A stretch of 64,000 nucleotides of DNA, from the NCBI RefSeq assembly GCF_001278035.1, contig NZ_CP009452.1:1521501-1585500 (forward strand). Reading direction: 5' to 3'. A model generated the notes under the pieces. The model had not been told where the DNA came from. It did not search any database and saw nothing but the letters and a program-made list of their open reading frames with translations. This DNA is from Sphingopyxis sp. 113P3 (GTDB taxonomy: Bacteria; Pseudomonadota; Alphaproteobacteria; Sphingomonadales; Sphingomonadaceae). Of this stretch, positions 7,696 through 12,163 are shown one piece after another. How positions within the stretch are numbered: the first letter of the stretch is position 1; every line of letters begins with the position of its first letter. The position numbers and the translations under genes are program-made.

Positions 7696-8891
7696 CAGAT
7701 TATCCAGTCCAGTTGGAGCCAAAATTTGTTCGTATCGGCGGCAAAGCCGTCGGCGCGGTAGCGGGCGAAGCGAAGAGACGCGGTGGATCTGCCGAGCGTC
7801 GCGCCCGCGAGCAGGTCTATCTCCTCGCCATAGGAACGGCTCGCCCGATCGCTGCGATAGTCGTGATAAACCGCCTGGAGCGTGACGGCCTTGAGCGGGC
7901 CGATCGCTTTCCAGCTCCAGCCCGCACTCGCGTAGAGGTCGCGCACGCCATCGGGCGGCGTGACCAGGAATTTGTCCGCCCACCCCTGGAATTTGAACCC
8001 GGTTGCAAGCGGGGTCTGGAAACTGGTGAGCGGGGCCCCGTCGCTCGCGCCCATCACTTCATATCCGGCGCCAACCCGCGGGCCGCCGAGATCGACCCCG
8101 ACGTCGACCAGATAATAATCGGCCGCGTATCGATTGGGATTTCGGTGCCAGTCCGACTGGCGCGCATAGGAAAATTGATAGGCGATTTTTGCCGCGCCGA
8201 GCTTTTGCCTTCCCTCGAGCCGCGCGCCATAGCTCTGGCTCGATAGTTGGAAATCCTGCACCGCGGGCTCGTCCTGATCCACAAGATTGGCGAAAGCGGT
8301 GAGCTTTCCGAGCGGTGTCGCGACGCCAAGCGTGCCAAACAGATTGTCGCCCGACACCGCCTGCGGCCGCGCACCAGTGCCGTCGATGCCCCAGATCGTG
8401 CGGACGCTCCACGCATAGGCGATGTGTGCCGTTACACCTTGCGCAGGTGCGATTTCGGCGCGCACTGCGTCGAAGCTCTGGCTGTTTTGGCGAAAGCTGA
8501 CCGAACCGACGAAACGCTCATCATCGAAGGCCAGCCGCTGGCGTCCGGCCGTGATCACGACGCCGGGCGCAGCATAGCGAAGCTGCGCGCGGCTAAGGGC
8601 GATGTTTTCGGGGTCTGCAATCAGCGGGGTTGCGGGCGACCCCCCAAGGCCGCTGAAATAATCATCGATGATCGCGAGATTGCCCTGGCCCTCGATCAGG
8701 GCCGACCAGCGATCGGCTTTCGCCGCGACCCCGGCCCGGACGCGCAGCGTCAGCGCGTCGGCTCCCGCGAAACCCTGCTGATCGACGCTTTCATAGCGCA
8801 AACGGGCCTCGCCGAGCGGGGAAAGCACGATGTCCTGTGCGCAGAGCGTGGTCGGCATCAGCGCGGGAAGAAGAAAGAAGGCGCGCACCAT
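7695..8891 (-). CDS. Outer-membrane beta-barrel protein (alginate-export/porin-like)
   Basis: The protein is 398 residues long with an N-terminal signal peptide (MVRAFFLLPALMPTTLCAQ, cleavage expected after CAQ). The mature part alternates hydrophobic and polar residues in short strands separated by Gly/Asp turns, ending in NKFWLQLDWII, as expected for a transmembrane barrel. It resembles the alginate-export (AlgE-like) barrel family found in sphingomonads. Its position between the nitrate transporter and nirB, with a 1-base gap upstream and a 1-base overlap downstream, suggests it is an outer-membrane channel for nitrate, nitrite or a related anion. That role is inferred from context only. 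ATG 8891 is chosen over an upstream in-frame start because it begins the signal peptide. Confidence 0.8.
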   Translation of the reverse strand: MVRAFFLLPALMPTTLCAQDIVLSPLGEARLRYESVDQQGFAGADALTLRVRAGVAAKADRWSALIEGQGNLAIIDDYFSGLGGSPATPLIADPENIALSRAQLRYAAPGVVITAGRQRLAFDDERFVGSVSFRQNSQSFDAVRAEIAPAQGVTAHIAYAWSVRTIWGIDGTGARPQAVSGDNLFGTLGVATPLGKLTAFANLVDQDEPAVQDFQLSSQSYGARLEGRQKLGAAKIAYQFSYARQSDWHRNPNRYAADYYLVDVGVDLGGPRVGAGYEVMGASDGAPLTSFQTPLATGFKFQGWADKFLVTPPDGVRDLYASAGWSWKAIGPLKAVTLQAVYHDYRSDRASRSYGEEIDLLAGATLGRSTASLRFARYRADGFAADTNKFWLQLDWII

Positions 8892-8892
8892 G

Positions 8893-10104
8893 TCAGATCC
8901 GCACGCCCTCGGGTGCACTCCAGGTGGTCCGCCACTGCTTCTTGACGAACATCAGCGCGGCGAGGGCGGCCACAGCGAGCCCGGCAAAGATATAAAATCC
9001 AGGGGCAAAGCTGCCTGTCCACTGTTTGGCGAAACCGAGAGAGGAGGCGAGGTAGAAGCCGCCGACGCCTCCTGCCATACCGACAAGCCCGGTCATCACG
9101 CCGATTTCATCGGAAAAGCGCTGGGGAACCAGCTGGAAGACCGATCCGTTGCCGGTGCCAAGCGCGAGCATCGCAATAACGAACAGAGCGAGCGCGGCGG
9201 GCAGGCTTGCAGCCTGGGGCACGCCTGCGAGCGCGAGCGCCGCTACCACATAGACAATCATGAGCGCACGCACGCCGCCGATCCGGTCGGCCAACGCGCC
9301 GCCCAATGGCCGTACGAGCGACCCTGCAAAGACGCAGCCCGCGGTGCAATAGCCCGCAATCACAGGAGTGAGGTGAAACTGGTCGGTAAAATAGATGGTC
9401 AAGGAGGCGGCGAGCCCGACGAAACCCCCGAACGTTACCGAATAAAAGGCCATCAGCCACCAGGCGTCGGCGGACTTGAGCGGCTCGAAATAATCGATCA
9501 GCTTCTTGGGCGCGGGGCTATGGGGGGCGTCCTTCGCCATGAAGAGATAGGCGACGAAAACGACCGTGAGCGGGATGCAGGCAAGGCCGAGAACGGCATT
9601 CCATCCGAACAGCTTTGCAAGACCGGGTGCAAAAAGAGCAGCGAGCACCGTCCCTGAGTTGCCCATGCCGGCAAGCCCCATCGCCTTGCCCTGGTGTTCG
9701 GGTGGGTACCAGCGGCTTGCCAGCGGCAGCGCGATCGCAAAGCTCGCCCCCGCAAAGCCGAGGACAACGCCGAGCGCGAGCGTTCCTGCAAAGCTCGATA
9801 CTCCCATCATCCACGCGGTCAGGAGCCCGGCGATGACGATCGCCTGGCTGATCGCGCCCGAGAGCTTGGGGCCGATGCGATCGACGAGCAGGCCATTGCT
9901 GACGCGCAAAATCGCACCCGCGAGCGTCGGGACGGCGACCATCAATCCCTTTTGGGCTGGCGTGAGCCCCAGATCCTCGGAGATTGCAGGCGCGAGCGGC
10001 CCGAGGATGACCCACACCATGAAGGCGAGGTCGAAATAGAGAAAGGCTGCGACCAATGTCGGCCAATGTCCGCTCGACCAGAAGCTTGATTGTTCCTTCG
10101 TCAT
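8893..10104 (-). CDS. narK: Nitrate/nitrite transporter of the NarK/NasA major facilitator family
   Basis: A 403-residue polytopic inner-membrane protein with about 12 hydrophobic segments. It carries the glycine-rich nitrate signatures of the NNP family (GMGNSGTVLAALFAPG in the first half, ALGTGNGSVFQLVP in the second). It would import nitrate, and possibly export nitrite, for the reductases encoded downstream. ATG 10104 follows a GGGGACGG ribosome-binding stretch; the longer in-frame extension overlaps the terminator of the leader and is rejected. It is the first structural gene after the sigma-54 promoter and ANTAR leader, so its expression should depend on NasT antitermination. Confidence 0.93.
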   Translation of the reverse strand: MTKEQSSFWSSGHWPTLVAAFLYFDLAFMVWVILGPLAPAISEDLGLTPAQKGLMVAVPTLAGAILRVSNGLLVDRIGPKLSGAISQAIVIAGLLTAWMMGVSSFAGTLALGVVLGFAGASFAIALPLASRWYPPEHQGKAMGLAGMGNSGTVLAALFAPGLAKLFGWNAVLGLACIPLTVVFVAYLFMAKDAPHSPAPKKLIDYFEPLKSADAWWLMAFYSVTFGGFVGLAASLTIYFTDQFHLTPVIAGYCTAGCVFAGSLVRPLGGALADRIGGVRALMIVYVVAALALAGVPQAASLPAALALFVIAMLALGTGNGSVFQLVPQRFSDEIGVMTGLVGMAGGVGGFYLASSLGFAKQWTGSFAPGFYIFAGLAVAALAALMFVKKQWRTTWSAPEGVRI

Positions 10105-10131
10105 CGTCCGTCCCCTTTTGCGACGGGCAAT

Positions 10132-10179
10132 AAAAAAGCCGCCAGGACGGCGGCCACATGCGGCGCATCCTGACGGCTT
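10132..10179 (-). terminator. Second intrinsic terminator of the nas leader
   Basis: Read on the minus strand, GCCGCC-GTCCT-GGCGGC is followed by six T residues. An alternative longer stem pairs AAGCCGTCAGGA (10168-10179) with TCCTGGCGGCTT, with one G-T wobble, around a 20-base loop and ends in the same T run. The T run stops 27 bases before the narK start codon. The two alternative foldings suggest either a simple second terminator or another switch point. Confidence 0.75.
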
Positions 10180-10200
10180 CATTGCCTCTTGGAGTGCGGG

Positions 10201-10233
10201 AAAAAGGCTCCCCGCCTGCCGCGCGGGCCAGCC
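10201..10233 (-). terminator. First intrinsic terminator (attenuator) of the nas leader
   Basis: On the minus strand GGCT and CCCGC pair with GCGGG and AGCC around a seven-base loop (GCGGCAG), with a small internal loop, then run straight into TTTTT. The 5' GGC of this stem is also the 3' arm of ANTAR hairpin 2 (10231-10246), so the two structures exclude each other. Confidence 0.8.
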
Positions 10234-10283
10234 CCCTCGTTGGAGCGGCGCCGCTGTGATCTCGGCCCGGCAGCCTTGCCGGG
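10231..10283 (-). promoter_or_regulatory. ANTAR-type antiterminator RNA (two hexaloop hairpins), predicted NasT target
   Basis: Hairpin 1 (10266-10283, minus strand) is CCCGGC-AAGGCT-GCCGGG, a perfect six-pair stem with a six-base loop. Hairpin 2 (10231-10246) is GCTCC-AACGAG-GGGGC, five pairs including one G-U. Both loops have A at position 1 and G at position 4, the known recognition features of ANTAR-domain antiterminators. The linker is 19 bases. The 3' arm of hairpin 2 overlaps the 5' arm of the terminator at 10201-10233. NasT binding should therefore stabilise hairpin 2, block the terminator and let transcription reach narK. The trans-acting NasS and NasT are encoded immediately upstream. 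Confidence 0.85.
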
Positions 10284-10334
10284 TGACGTCAAATTGCCTG
10301 ATTCGTCTCGTGTGCGCAAGCGGTTATTTTGCAG

Positions 10335-10350
10335 TGCAACATTTTCGCCA
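10335..10350 (-). promoter_or_regulatory. Sigma-54 promoter of the nas structural operon
   Basis: On the minus strand TGGCGAAAATGTTGCA fits the sigma-54 consensus TGGCAC-N5-TTGCA with the invariant GG-N10-GC spacing. The predicted start of transcription is near 10324, giving a leader of about 220 bases before the narK ATG. The promoter begins 24 bases after the nasS stop. It implies activation by an NtrC-type enhancer protein; I did not identify the enhancer sites, which would lie within the nasS coding region. Confidence 0.75.
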
Positions 10351-10373
10351 TACGCGGTCTTGGAAGACTTCCC

Positions 10374-11585
10374 TCACGGAAGGCTTGCAAGATATCCTGC
10401 AATATCCTCCGGGTCGAAGGCGCGGCGATCGAAGAAGCGATCGGCGCCGAGGAGCAGGCGGCCTTGCGTCGAGCCGGCGCCGATCGGGGCATCGAGACCG
10501 CCTTCGAGCTTCGAACTGGCTCCCGGCAGGGGCGCGCCTGAACCCGCGAGCGCTGCCCGGTAGATGTCGGGACGAAAAACCTCTGCCGCGGTCGCCGCGT
10601 CGGCAGGCGAGAAGCCGATTTTGTCCCAGCGCACCATTTGCGAATAGAGCCACGCCGCCTGGCTGCGCCAGGGAAAATTGGCAGCCTCGCGATATTGGAA
10701 CATGAAATCGGGGTACGCGACCGGCGCGCCGCCGGGAACGACGCGGATACGGTCGGTGATGGCCCGTTCGATCGCGTCCTGCGGGGCGTCGAGATAGGCG
10801 GGGCGCGCGAGGATGGCGGCGCTCTCGGCGGCGCTCGCAGGCTCCACGAAATGCGCGGCCGCCGCATGGAGCGCGCGCAGCAACGCCTCGACCGCATCGC
10901 GGCGCGCTTCGATGACATCGCTGCGAACGGCGAGCACTTTTTCGACCCCGCGGCGCCAGATCTGCGCGGTCGCGAGCGCGATATGCCCGACGCCGCGATC
11001 AACCGCGATGGCGTTCCACGGCTCCCCGACGCAGATGCCGTCGACCTCGCCGGCAGCCAGCGCATCGGCGGCAAAGGGGGGACTGGTCACCGTGATTTCG
11101 ACGTCGCTGTCGGGCTGGATGCCGACCCCGGCAAGCCAGTAGCGAAGCATATAATTATGGCTGGAATAACGATGGACGACACCAAAACGCAAAGGGCGGC
11201 CCGCCGCCTTGCGTGCCGCTGCCGCCTCGCGCAGCGCCGCGCCGAGCGCTGCGGGATCGCCCAGACCATCGCCGAGCCCCACCTCGGCAGCAAGCGCGGT
11301 CGAGAAGGTCACGGCATTGCCGTTCAGTCCAAGTACGAAGGGGACCGCAAGCGGCACCGCGGGCCGGTCGCGACCGAGCGCGGTCGCGATCGCCAGCGGA
11401 GCGATCAGGTGCGCAGCGTCAGTGTGCCCGTAGAGCAATCGGTCGCGCACCGTCGCCCAGGTCATGTCACGAATGAATTCAATTTCGACGCCTTCGCGCG
11501 CGGCAAAGCCCAGTTCATGCGCGAGAATCGGCAGCGCGGCGTCGACCAGCGGCAAAAAGCCGATGCGAAAGCGTTCGGCGCTCAC
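10374..11585 (-). CDS. nasS: Nitrate/nitrite sensor NasS
   Basis: A 403-residue protein related to the periplasmic nitrate-binding proteins (NrtA/SsuA-like fold, segment RIGFLPLVDAALPILAHELGF), but without a signal peptide, so it is cytoplasmic. In characterised NasS/NasT systems NasS sequesters NasT when nitrate and nitrite are absent and releases it when ligand binds. The start is GTG 11585, which overlaps the nasT stop (GTGA) and follows GGGAG. It is co-transcribed with nasT and lies just upstream of the sigma-54 promoter of the structural genes. Direct ligand residues cannot be verified by eye. Confidence 0.9.
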   Translation of the reverse strand: MSAERFRIGFLPLVDAALPILAHELGFAAREGVEIEFIRDMTWATVRDRLLYGHTDAAHLIAPLAIATALGRDRPAVPLAVPFVLGLNGNAVTFSTALAAEVGLGDGLGDPAALGAALREAAAARKAAGRPLRFGVVHRYSSHNYMLRYWLAGVGIQPDSDVEITVTSPPFAADALAAGEVDGICVGEPWNAIAVDRGVGHIALATAQIWRRGVEKVLAVRSDVIEARRDAVEALLRALHAAAAHFVEPASAAESAAILARPAYLDAPQDAIERAITDRIRVVPGGAPVAYPDFMFQYREAANFPWRSQAAWLYSQMVRWDKIGFSPADAATAAEVFRPDIYRAALAGSGAPLPGASSKLEGGLDAPIGAGSTQGRLLLGADRFFDRRAFDPEDIAGYLASLP

Positions 11586-12163
11586 TCCATATCTCCCAAA
11601 AGCGCGTCGCTCGTCACGATCGCCTCGGCGATTTCGGCGATCCGGCGGTTGGTTCGCATCGCCTGTCCGCGCAGCAGTGCATAGGCGGCAGGTTCGTCGA
11701 TTCCCCGCCGTTTCATCAAGATCGCCTTGGCCCGGTCGATGGTCCCGCGTTCGGCGAGGGCATTTTTCGCTTCGTCGAGCTCCCGCTGGAGCCGTGAAAA
11801 GGCCTGGAAGCGCCGCACCGCGAGATCGACCACCGGTTTGATCCGCTGTTTCGAGAGCCCATCGACGACATAGGCCGAGACGCCCGCGTCGATCGCGGCG
11901 CCCGTCGCTTCGGCATCGCTCTGGTCGACAAACATTGCGATCGGGCGCGCGAGCGCGCGCGACATGGCGAAGAAATCCTCGAGCAGGTCTCGGCTCGGGT
12001 TTTCCAGGTTGATCAGGACCACTTCGGGGCGCGCGGCCTCGACCTGCGCGACGATCGGCCCCTTGGGGTCGATGAGAATGAGATCATCGAGGCCCGCCTC
12101 GCGCAGACCGTCCGAAATGATCGCAGCGCGCGTTGTGCTGGTGTCGATGATCGCGATCCGCAT
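11582..12163 (-). CDS. nasT: ANTAR-domain transcription antiterminator NasT
   Basis: A 193-residue RNA-binding response-regulator-like protein. Residues 1 to about 120 form a receiver-like domain and the C-terminal 60 residues are an ANTAR domain (RAKAILMKRRGIDEPAAY...LRGQAM), which binds hexaloop RNA hairpins. The predicted phosphoacceptor region reads VVLINLENPSRD, with Asn where a receiver usually has Asp, in line with control by NasS rather than by phosphorylation. The start is ATG 12163 (MRIAIIDTS); ATG 12175 four codons upstream is possible. Its predicted RNA target lies at 10231-10283, ahead of narK. Confidence 0.92.
   Translation of the reverse strand: MRIAIIDTSTTRAAIISDGLREAGLDDLILIDPKGPIVAQVEAARPEVVLINLENPSRDLLEDFFAMSRALARPIAMFVDQSDAEATGAAIDAGVSAYVVDGLSKQRIKPVVDLAVRRFQAFSRLQRELDEAKNALAERGTIDRAKAILMKRRGIDEPAAYALLRGQAMRTNRRIAEIAEAIVTSDALLGDME

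Follow-up and report, generated by a model that had tools for sequence, protein, structure and literature searches.

The leader of the nitrate assimilation operon in Sphingopyxis sp. 113P3 most probably acts as a nitrate-responsive antitermination switch controlled by NasT, working through a hexaloop hairpin at the foot of a conserved terminator (PT) together with a second hexaloop upstream (P2), and with a further hexaloop (P1) as an extra; we put the probability of this reading at about 85%. We infer a NasT switch from the hairpins, their covariation, the mutual exclusion of PT and terminator, the gene order and the presence of a single ANTAR protein. By analogy with published work on NasT, NasR and EutV, NasS would be the sensor, NasT would bind the hexaloops, and the direction of regulation would be the one described there. 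An earlier note on the window (the whole 64,000-nucleotide stretch of DNA that was analysed) had predicted an ANTAR antitermination leader before the nas operon. The leader is well supported, but the mechanism as drawn is not, and the five T taken as the end of its terminator belong to the loop of another hairpin, P3. The features are collected in Table 1, where A1 and G4 denote A at loop position 1 and G at loop position 4.

Table 1. Genes and RNA structures of the nasT-nasS locus, in window positions
Feature	Position	Strand	Description
nasT	11582..12163	-	ANTAR-domain antiterminator protein; Pfam ANTAR, E 2.4e-19; start codon uncertain
nasS	10374..11585	-	predicted nitrate/nitrite sensor partner; Pfam NMT1_2, E 6.7e-64; adjoins nasT
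P1	10283-10266	-	first hexaloop hairpin, CCCGGC-AAGGCT-GCCGGG, A1 and G4; 3 of 6 pairs changed on both sides (37 leaders)
P2	10246-10231	-	second hexaloop hairpin, GCTCC-AACGAG-GGGGC, A1 and G4; covariation (37 leaders)
P3	10215-10196	-	hairpin GCGGG-(GAGCCUUUUU)-CCCGC between P2 and PT; loop contains five T
PT	10186-10175	-	third hexaloop hairpin, GGC-AATGAA-GCC (RNA loop AAUGAA), A1 and G4; at terminator 5' foot
Intrinsic terminator	stem 10179-10136, six T 10137-10132	-	-29.8 kcal/mol; also found in the plain scan
narK-type transporter gene	8893..10104	-	first gene behind the switch; Pfam MFS_1

On the minus strand, the genes follow in the order nasT, nasS, leader, narK-type transporter, porin, nirB, nirD and a molybdopterin nitrate reductase-like gene, with the leader located between the end of nasS (10374) and the narK ATG (10104-10102). 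As the earlier note had stated, NasT is encoded 1.3 kb upstream: nasT ends at 11582, 1.3 kb before P1, and nasS lies between. NasT shares 99% identity with its counterpart in Sphingopyxis flava and has the only ANTAR domain found in a profile search of the whole genome; its relatives in the PDB are EutV (6wsh, the best match), 1s8n, 4akk and AmiR (1qo0). The neighbouring product is presumably NasS, a name taken from the gene order and from published NasS-NasT systems. An ANTAR protein and an adjacent substrate-binding-like sensor upstream of nitrate assimilation genes, the arrangement characteristic of such systems, were both observed here. The best NCBIfam match of the narK-type product was TIGR00886, the NarK family (282.2 bits, below the cut-off of 311.7), the nitrate reductase-like gene likewise matched NCBIfam below the curated cut-off, and the porin had a marginal Alginate_exp match. 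The names nirB and nirD were assigned from their ORFs, and the porin stop overlaps the nirB start at 7697-7693.

The stop that is conserved among relatives is an intrinsic terminator about 60 bases further on than the five T of the earlier note. It reads AAGCCGUCAGGA...UCCUGGCGGCUU plus the U tract (10179-10132), and its outer pairs use the first two of the six T. The comparison covered 141 leaders: that of the window, 80 from NasT loci in named records, almost all of them sphingomonad, and 60 from genomes of the family. The last group was taken as regions from 71 NasT proteins above 180 bits among the matches listed, the own genome included. At the threshold used, the terminator was found in 130 of the 141 leaders, leaving 11 without it. 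In an alignment of 37 leaders, 8 of its 18 pairs changed on both sides, and none of 500 shuffles scored as high on any measure. This alignment originated from 82 leaders passing a first array filter, which gave 79 distinct sequences and 47 after clustering at 92%; ten of these, the mis-assigned L033 and nine from other genera, were left out. A search of Rfam 15 over window positions 8000-12000 returned five weak matches, none reaching its gathering score; one of them, to isrD on the leader strand, overlaps the terminator and scored 16.8 of 37 bits (E 8.1).

In the switch first drawn for this leader, P1 and P2 form the dual-hexaloop pair, and P2 shares its 3' arm with a terminator ending in the five T at 10205-10201 on the minus strand. 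The stem and the T run are present in this strain, where the plain scan called CCCGC/GCGGG with five T terminator-like and where, in the window alone, a larger fold ending at the five T passes the terminator rule used here. L017 also carries five T, and many rows carry four. However, among 25 distinct Sphingopyxis leaders (from 27 of the Sphingopyxis group that were tried), the stem was 82.6% paired compared with 82.9% in shuffles, with no pair changed on both sides. Among the 37 wider leaders, pairing amounted to 49.5%, with 49.6% for the best slid version, and 18 of 500 shuffles attained the covariation score. The T run decays to TTT, CATT, ATT, CTT or CAT in some relatives and lies inside the loop of P3, a hairpin in which 3 of 5 pairs changed on both sides among the same 25 leaders. 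Missing covariation and the decay of the T run rule out the five-T terminator as a conserved stop, and we regard competition between P2 and that terminator as very unlikely to be the switch; a weak local terminator at 10205-10201 in this strain alone is possible.

The region around P3 was also analysed by folding. The interval between P2 and PT folded better than shuffles in the window and named-record group (mean z -1.77, with 45 of 76 below -1.5), and no better than shuffles in the window alone (z -0.32). A helix enclosing P2 is only a suggestion, with a mean z of -0.16 in the group of the window and L002-L081 and of -1.48 in the P2-only family group. When minus-strand pieces were folded singly, they stood out from shuffles in two cases only, P1 in isolation and the downstream terminator; single-sequence folding says little here, and the evidence is comparative. 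When P1, P2, P3 and PT were assessed jointly in the 25 Sphingopyxis leaders, one of the five measures (the number of pair types) was not above shuffles.

The hairpin that ties the hexaloops to the conserved terminator is PT, which lies outside the feature described in the earlier note (10201..10283). Its 3' arm is the 5' arm of the terminator, making the two structures mutually exclusive. PT was present in 129 of the 130 leaders having a terminator, the terminators being chosen without regard to PT; the exception, L145, is suspected to reflect a wrong choice of terminator. As a control, 40 distinct terminator-like structures outside leaders were collected from the same loci and the window under a slightly different rule (at most -15 kcal/mol and three closed outer pairs), several of them lying in coding sequence; 11 were PT-like, 10 of which represent a nirB switch described below, so that a PT-like hairpin occurred in 1 of 30 unrelated terminators.

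Within the 37 leaders of Sphingopyxis and Sphingomonas, PT does not vary and therefore offers no covariation, and genera were compared instead. Across genera, 52 distinct 18-mers were found among the 129 leaders, with stems that change in concert (GGC/GCC, GUGGC/GCCGC, CAGC/GCUG and GACAGC/GCUGUC); in the window, the stem has only 3 pairs. An alignment of 57 distinct rows, made up of these 52 and five from the second (nirB) switch, contained 28 cells changed on both sides compared with 11.7 in shuffles. Pair 4 was GC in 47 rows and AU in 10, and never unpaired. The covariation score of 0.174 exceeded all 500 shuffles, with partner slides of +2 and +3, which have fewer pairs, giving 0.174 and 0.184; two of the five measures (pairs changed on both sides and pair types) were not above shuffles. 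The closing pair was C:G in 57 of 57 distinct rows, which were not selected on the identity of that pair. Since selection of the rows required A1, G4 and a stem of 3 or more pairs, the loop letters and inner pairs are partly conserved by construction, and 129 of 130 is the fairer number for PT than loop or pair conservation.

The two A1/G4 hexaloop hairpins reported in the earlier note were both confirmed in the window, each loop being closed by a C:G pair. In the 37 leaders, P1 was paired in 100% of cells, and 4 of the 7 pairs of P2 (two flanking pairs included) changed on both sides. Under a single rule applied throughout, 87 of 129 PT-bearing leaders contained P1, P2 and PT together, and none of 2580 dinucleotide shuffles did. 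The array is thus beyond chance, and the stems of P1 and P2 covary in the 37 leaders; the number of arrays falls to 70 leaders if the P1 loop must start with A, and 42 of the 129 lack the array. P2 was found in 113 of the 129 PT-bearing leaders, compared with 1.6% of shuffles, and was missing by the same rule in 16. Hexaloop pairs are therefore conserved in homologous leaders, and the ANTAR reading stands on this point. The window and named-record loci contributed 80 leaders, distributed as 69 arrays, 7 with P2 and PT only and 4 with neither, while the 49 leaders of the family draw comprised 18 arrays, 19 with P2 and PT without P1 and 12 with neither. Loop-to-loop gaps within the arrays were 23-33 nt from P1 to P2 and 25-58 nt from P2 to PT; in the window, 19 nt separate P1 from P2 and 44 nt separate P2 from PT, the latter corresponding to 52 nt loop to loop.

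Several loci carry variations around the leader. In L035, L058 and L074, an insertion-like stretch of roughly 0.6 to 1.5 kb separates nasS from the array, with array, terminator and narK still together. L054-L057, L059, L061, L065 and their neighbours keep the array, followed by a gene whose product is only about 26% identical, along most of its length, to the narK-type transporter of the window, or unmatched. Several family loci, among them L115, L118, L143, L144 and L150, encode a second NasS-like protein of about 28-36% identity after the leader; it is perhaps an ABC transporter binding protein replacing NarK. Furthermore, two nasT-nasS loci with leaders (L021 and L031) occur on one contig (NZ_LNRU01000006.1, Sphingopyxis sp. 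H053). In the case of L076, a record titled Bacillus sp. 2B10 (RPSH01000006.1) encodes a NasT 78% identical to that of the window, with a sphingomonad-type leader, and is probably mislabelled or contaminated.

P1 appears to be the less constrained element. Its loop starts with A in 69 of the 87 arrays and with G in 18, and within Sphingopyxis G was found in 4 of 25 rows (L008, L015, L016 and L031), all 25 of which keep A1 and G4 in P2 and PT. As the first loop base of P1 varies while P2 and PT keep A1, P1 is under weaker constraint, and the best reading of the alignments is that P2 and PT would form the core pair, with P1 an extra hexaloop. The converse assignment, in which NasT binds P1 and P2 only and acts at a distance (for example via the intervening fold) on a terminator of which PT is a mere foot, could draw on the longer stems of P1 and P2, on their narrow spacing and on the fact that the terminator would conserve the 3' arm of PT anyway. 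We consider it improbable: the 5' arm of PT lies outside the terminator, which alone does not explain the matching changes in the arms, and PT-like hairpins are as rare in unrelated terminators as reported above. The family-draw leaders with P2 and PT and no P1, the G-first loops of P1, and the frequent occurrence outside the family of P2 and PT without a P1 that passes the filter also argue against it.

Outside the family, the comparison was extended to genomes of the class and the phylum. At E <= 1e-20, NasT matches occurred in 32 of the 240 genomes of the class and in 65 of the 249 of the phylum, counts that include the own genome and family members. Among the matches listed, 27 class and 20 phylum loci were taken. 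The class loci yielded 25 terminators, 18 of them with a PT whose loop begins with A or G and 4 with the triple array, and 10 loci had no terminator in the stretch read. The phylum loci yielded 16 terminator rows, in which one L229 terminator is counted twice, with PT in 12 and the triple array in 3, and 7 loci had no terminator in the stretch read. In L187, L191, L230 and L233, the hexaloop at the terminator foot has G, not A, at loop position 1. Like the window, these other alphaproteobacterial NasT leaders (L172-L191, L212-L218 and L220-L239) have PT at the foot of the terminator, preceded by P2, and 7 of the 30 PT-bearing rows pass the three-hairpin filter. They differ from the window in that the loop-to-loop distance from an upstream hexaloop to PT is only 11-21 nt in 24 of the 30 rows, as compact as EutV would lead one to expect. 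The long gap between P2 and PT is thus a sphingomonad peculiarity, most PT-bearing rows outside the family being compact, and the third hairpin is recurrent, not universal, outside the family.

A second PT-bearing terminator, located deeper in the operon, was identified in ten loci of the family (L123, L124, L125, L126, L133, L137, L142, L147, L152 and L153). Its PT stem is GATGGC/GCCATC in 7 of the 10, and it precedes a nirB-like start (VVIGNGMAGCRA... as in the nirB of the window) in 9, the stretch of L124 ending too soon. Three hexaloops accompany this second switch in L123, L147 and L152. In the operon of the window, a search from 10400 to 2001 found no second A1/G4 array.

To look beyond the operon, a covariance model (R1) was built from the same 37 leaders. 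In the own genome, R1 detected the leader at E 3.9e-15 and the next match at E 0.10; this second match, which reads as chance, and three further ones have neither a T run of five nor a hexaloop array. A search of the genome for the pattern of P2 and PT returned one match, the leader itself. These searches suggest that the leader operon may be the only direct target of NasT in the genome. Among family genomes, R1 gave matches at E <= 0.01 in 10 of 199, and the five below 1e-5 all have NasT. The same-genus genomes G042 and G181, without a listed NasT, gave no R1 match. G107 and G167 gave weak matches and have no listed NasT either, and matches near 0.005 are therefore probably chance. With 71 NasT matches above 180 bits listed in the same family draw, the model is clade-specific, so that its misses elsewhere mean little. 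In one family genome (G007:C1, 1606685-1612101), three weak R1 matches (E 5e-4 to 2e-3) were observed within 5.5 kb, away from its nasT.

Upstream of P1, a conserved promoter-like region was observed (window 10285-10345, minus strand), with TGYTGCR...GCRA in 72 of 86 distinct leaders and, in 39 of 86, CTTGV and GAATC spaced at 20-21 nt; a scan for the sigma-70 consensus found no promoter. This region would start the transcript close to P1. Its conservation fits an alternative in which nitrate acts at the promoter only and the hairpins are remnants or serve another role, such as RNA stability or binding of another protein. We give this alternative hardly any weight: with a strong terminator standing ahead of the first operon gene, some means of antitermination is required, and the loops follow the ANTAR rules beside the only ANTAR gene found.

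For the NasT switch, the following sequence of events is proposed. Without nitrate, NasS would hold NasT, and the polymerase would transcribe P1, P2 and P3; the terminator at 10179-10132 would then form and stop transcription before narK. With nitrate or nitrite, NasS would release NasT, which would bind the A1/G4 hexaloops. With P2 and PT as the working pair, PT would be held closed, removing the 5' arm of the terminator and allowing read-through. P1 would add another hexaloop, whose distance from P2 hardly varies, and P3 would fold part of the long gap between P2 and PT. As guesses, P1 may serve as an extra NasT site or a landing platform, and P3 as a compactor. A more specific and tentative version, to which we give somewhat less than even odds, is a three-site array in which NasT docks first on P1 and P2 as a stable platform and then captures the short-lived PT as it emerges, the distance from P2 to PT being bridged by P3 (by an enclosing helix in other genera).

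The hairpins can be compared with a published search definition of ANTAR targets, according to the available text of that survey: two hairpins of at least 3 bp with six-base loops, A1 and G4, separated by a variable linker, the second overlapping the 5' arm of an intrinsic terminator (PMC3369931). P1, P2 and PT in the window all show these hairpin characteristics; the overlap is found for PT, and not for P2 with the conserved terminator. A close parallel is the eut antiterminator of Enterococcus faecalis, where, in the portions of the two articles available, A1/G4 hexaloops also occur and the last one overlaps the 5' arm of the terminator and excludes it (PMC3369931, PMC8934654). Its protein EutV is, like NasT, a REC-like ANTAR relative, and is the best PDB match noted above. 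The spacing differs. The same sources report that EutV targets have linkers of 5-12 nt, that induction drops drastically at 3 or 14 nt (PMC3369931) and that an added 20 nt abolishes EutV antitermination in vitro, a dimer being proposed to contact each hexaloop individually (PMC8934654). This linker length is an experimental eut finding outside the search definition, and the leader, with its gaps of 19 and 44 nt, departs from it; since EutV targets have 5-12 nt, the 44 nt between P2 and PT count against the best reading. Compared with what the available eut text describes, the leader also has three hexaloops, not two, and the additional covarying P3.

Nitrate-responsive ANTAR switches before nitrate assimilation genes include NasR/nasF of Klebsiella oxytoca, for which the available text reports tighter binding of two hairpins than of one (about 1 versus 12 uM) and, from in vitro selection, loops with A1, G4 and a C:G closing pair (PMC7496416). 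The same A1, G4 and C:G combination was found in P1, P2 and PT. The systems differ in that NasR senses nitrate itself and the nasF motif is described there with two hairpins (PMC7496416), whereas NasS and NasT are separate here. Paracoccus denitrificans shares with Sphingopyxis the position of nasT-nasS upstream of the operon (PMC5424462, PMC3795266, as far as their available text goes). In the accessible part of one of these reports, two hairpins lie 137 and 91 bp before nasA, of which HI is needed for nitrate-dependent expression and HII is possibly attenuating (PMC5424462); three hexaloops and P3 are present in our case. In Bradyrhizobium, the available text describes NasT as acting on the nosR leader (PMC6759348). 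Within the portions at hand, published work describes the ANTAR motif as two hairpins (PMC3369931, PMC7496416). A literature search, largely without subscription papers or supplementary files, turned up neither a report on NasT leaders of sphingomonads nor an ANTAR leader with three hexaloops; leaders of this kind may be listed in the supplementary tables of the 2012 survey.

According to these results, nitrate assimilation in sphingomonads would be controlled at another terminator and another hairpin than first predicted, and mutants designed on the first reading would therefore leave PT and the conserved terminator unexamined. Additionally, the leaders of the family provide a large natural series, with two or three hexaloops, P2 and PT 25-58 nt apart in the arrays and A or G at the start of the P1 loop, in which the dual-hexaloop, short-linker model derived from EutV can be tested. 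If the three-site array proved true, ANTAR switches would not be strictly dual, and the spacing rule would be one of folded distance.
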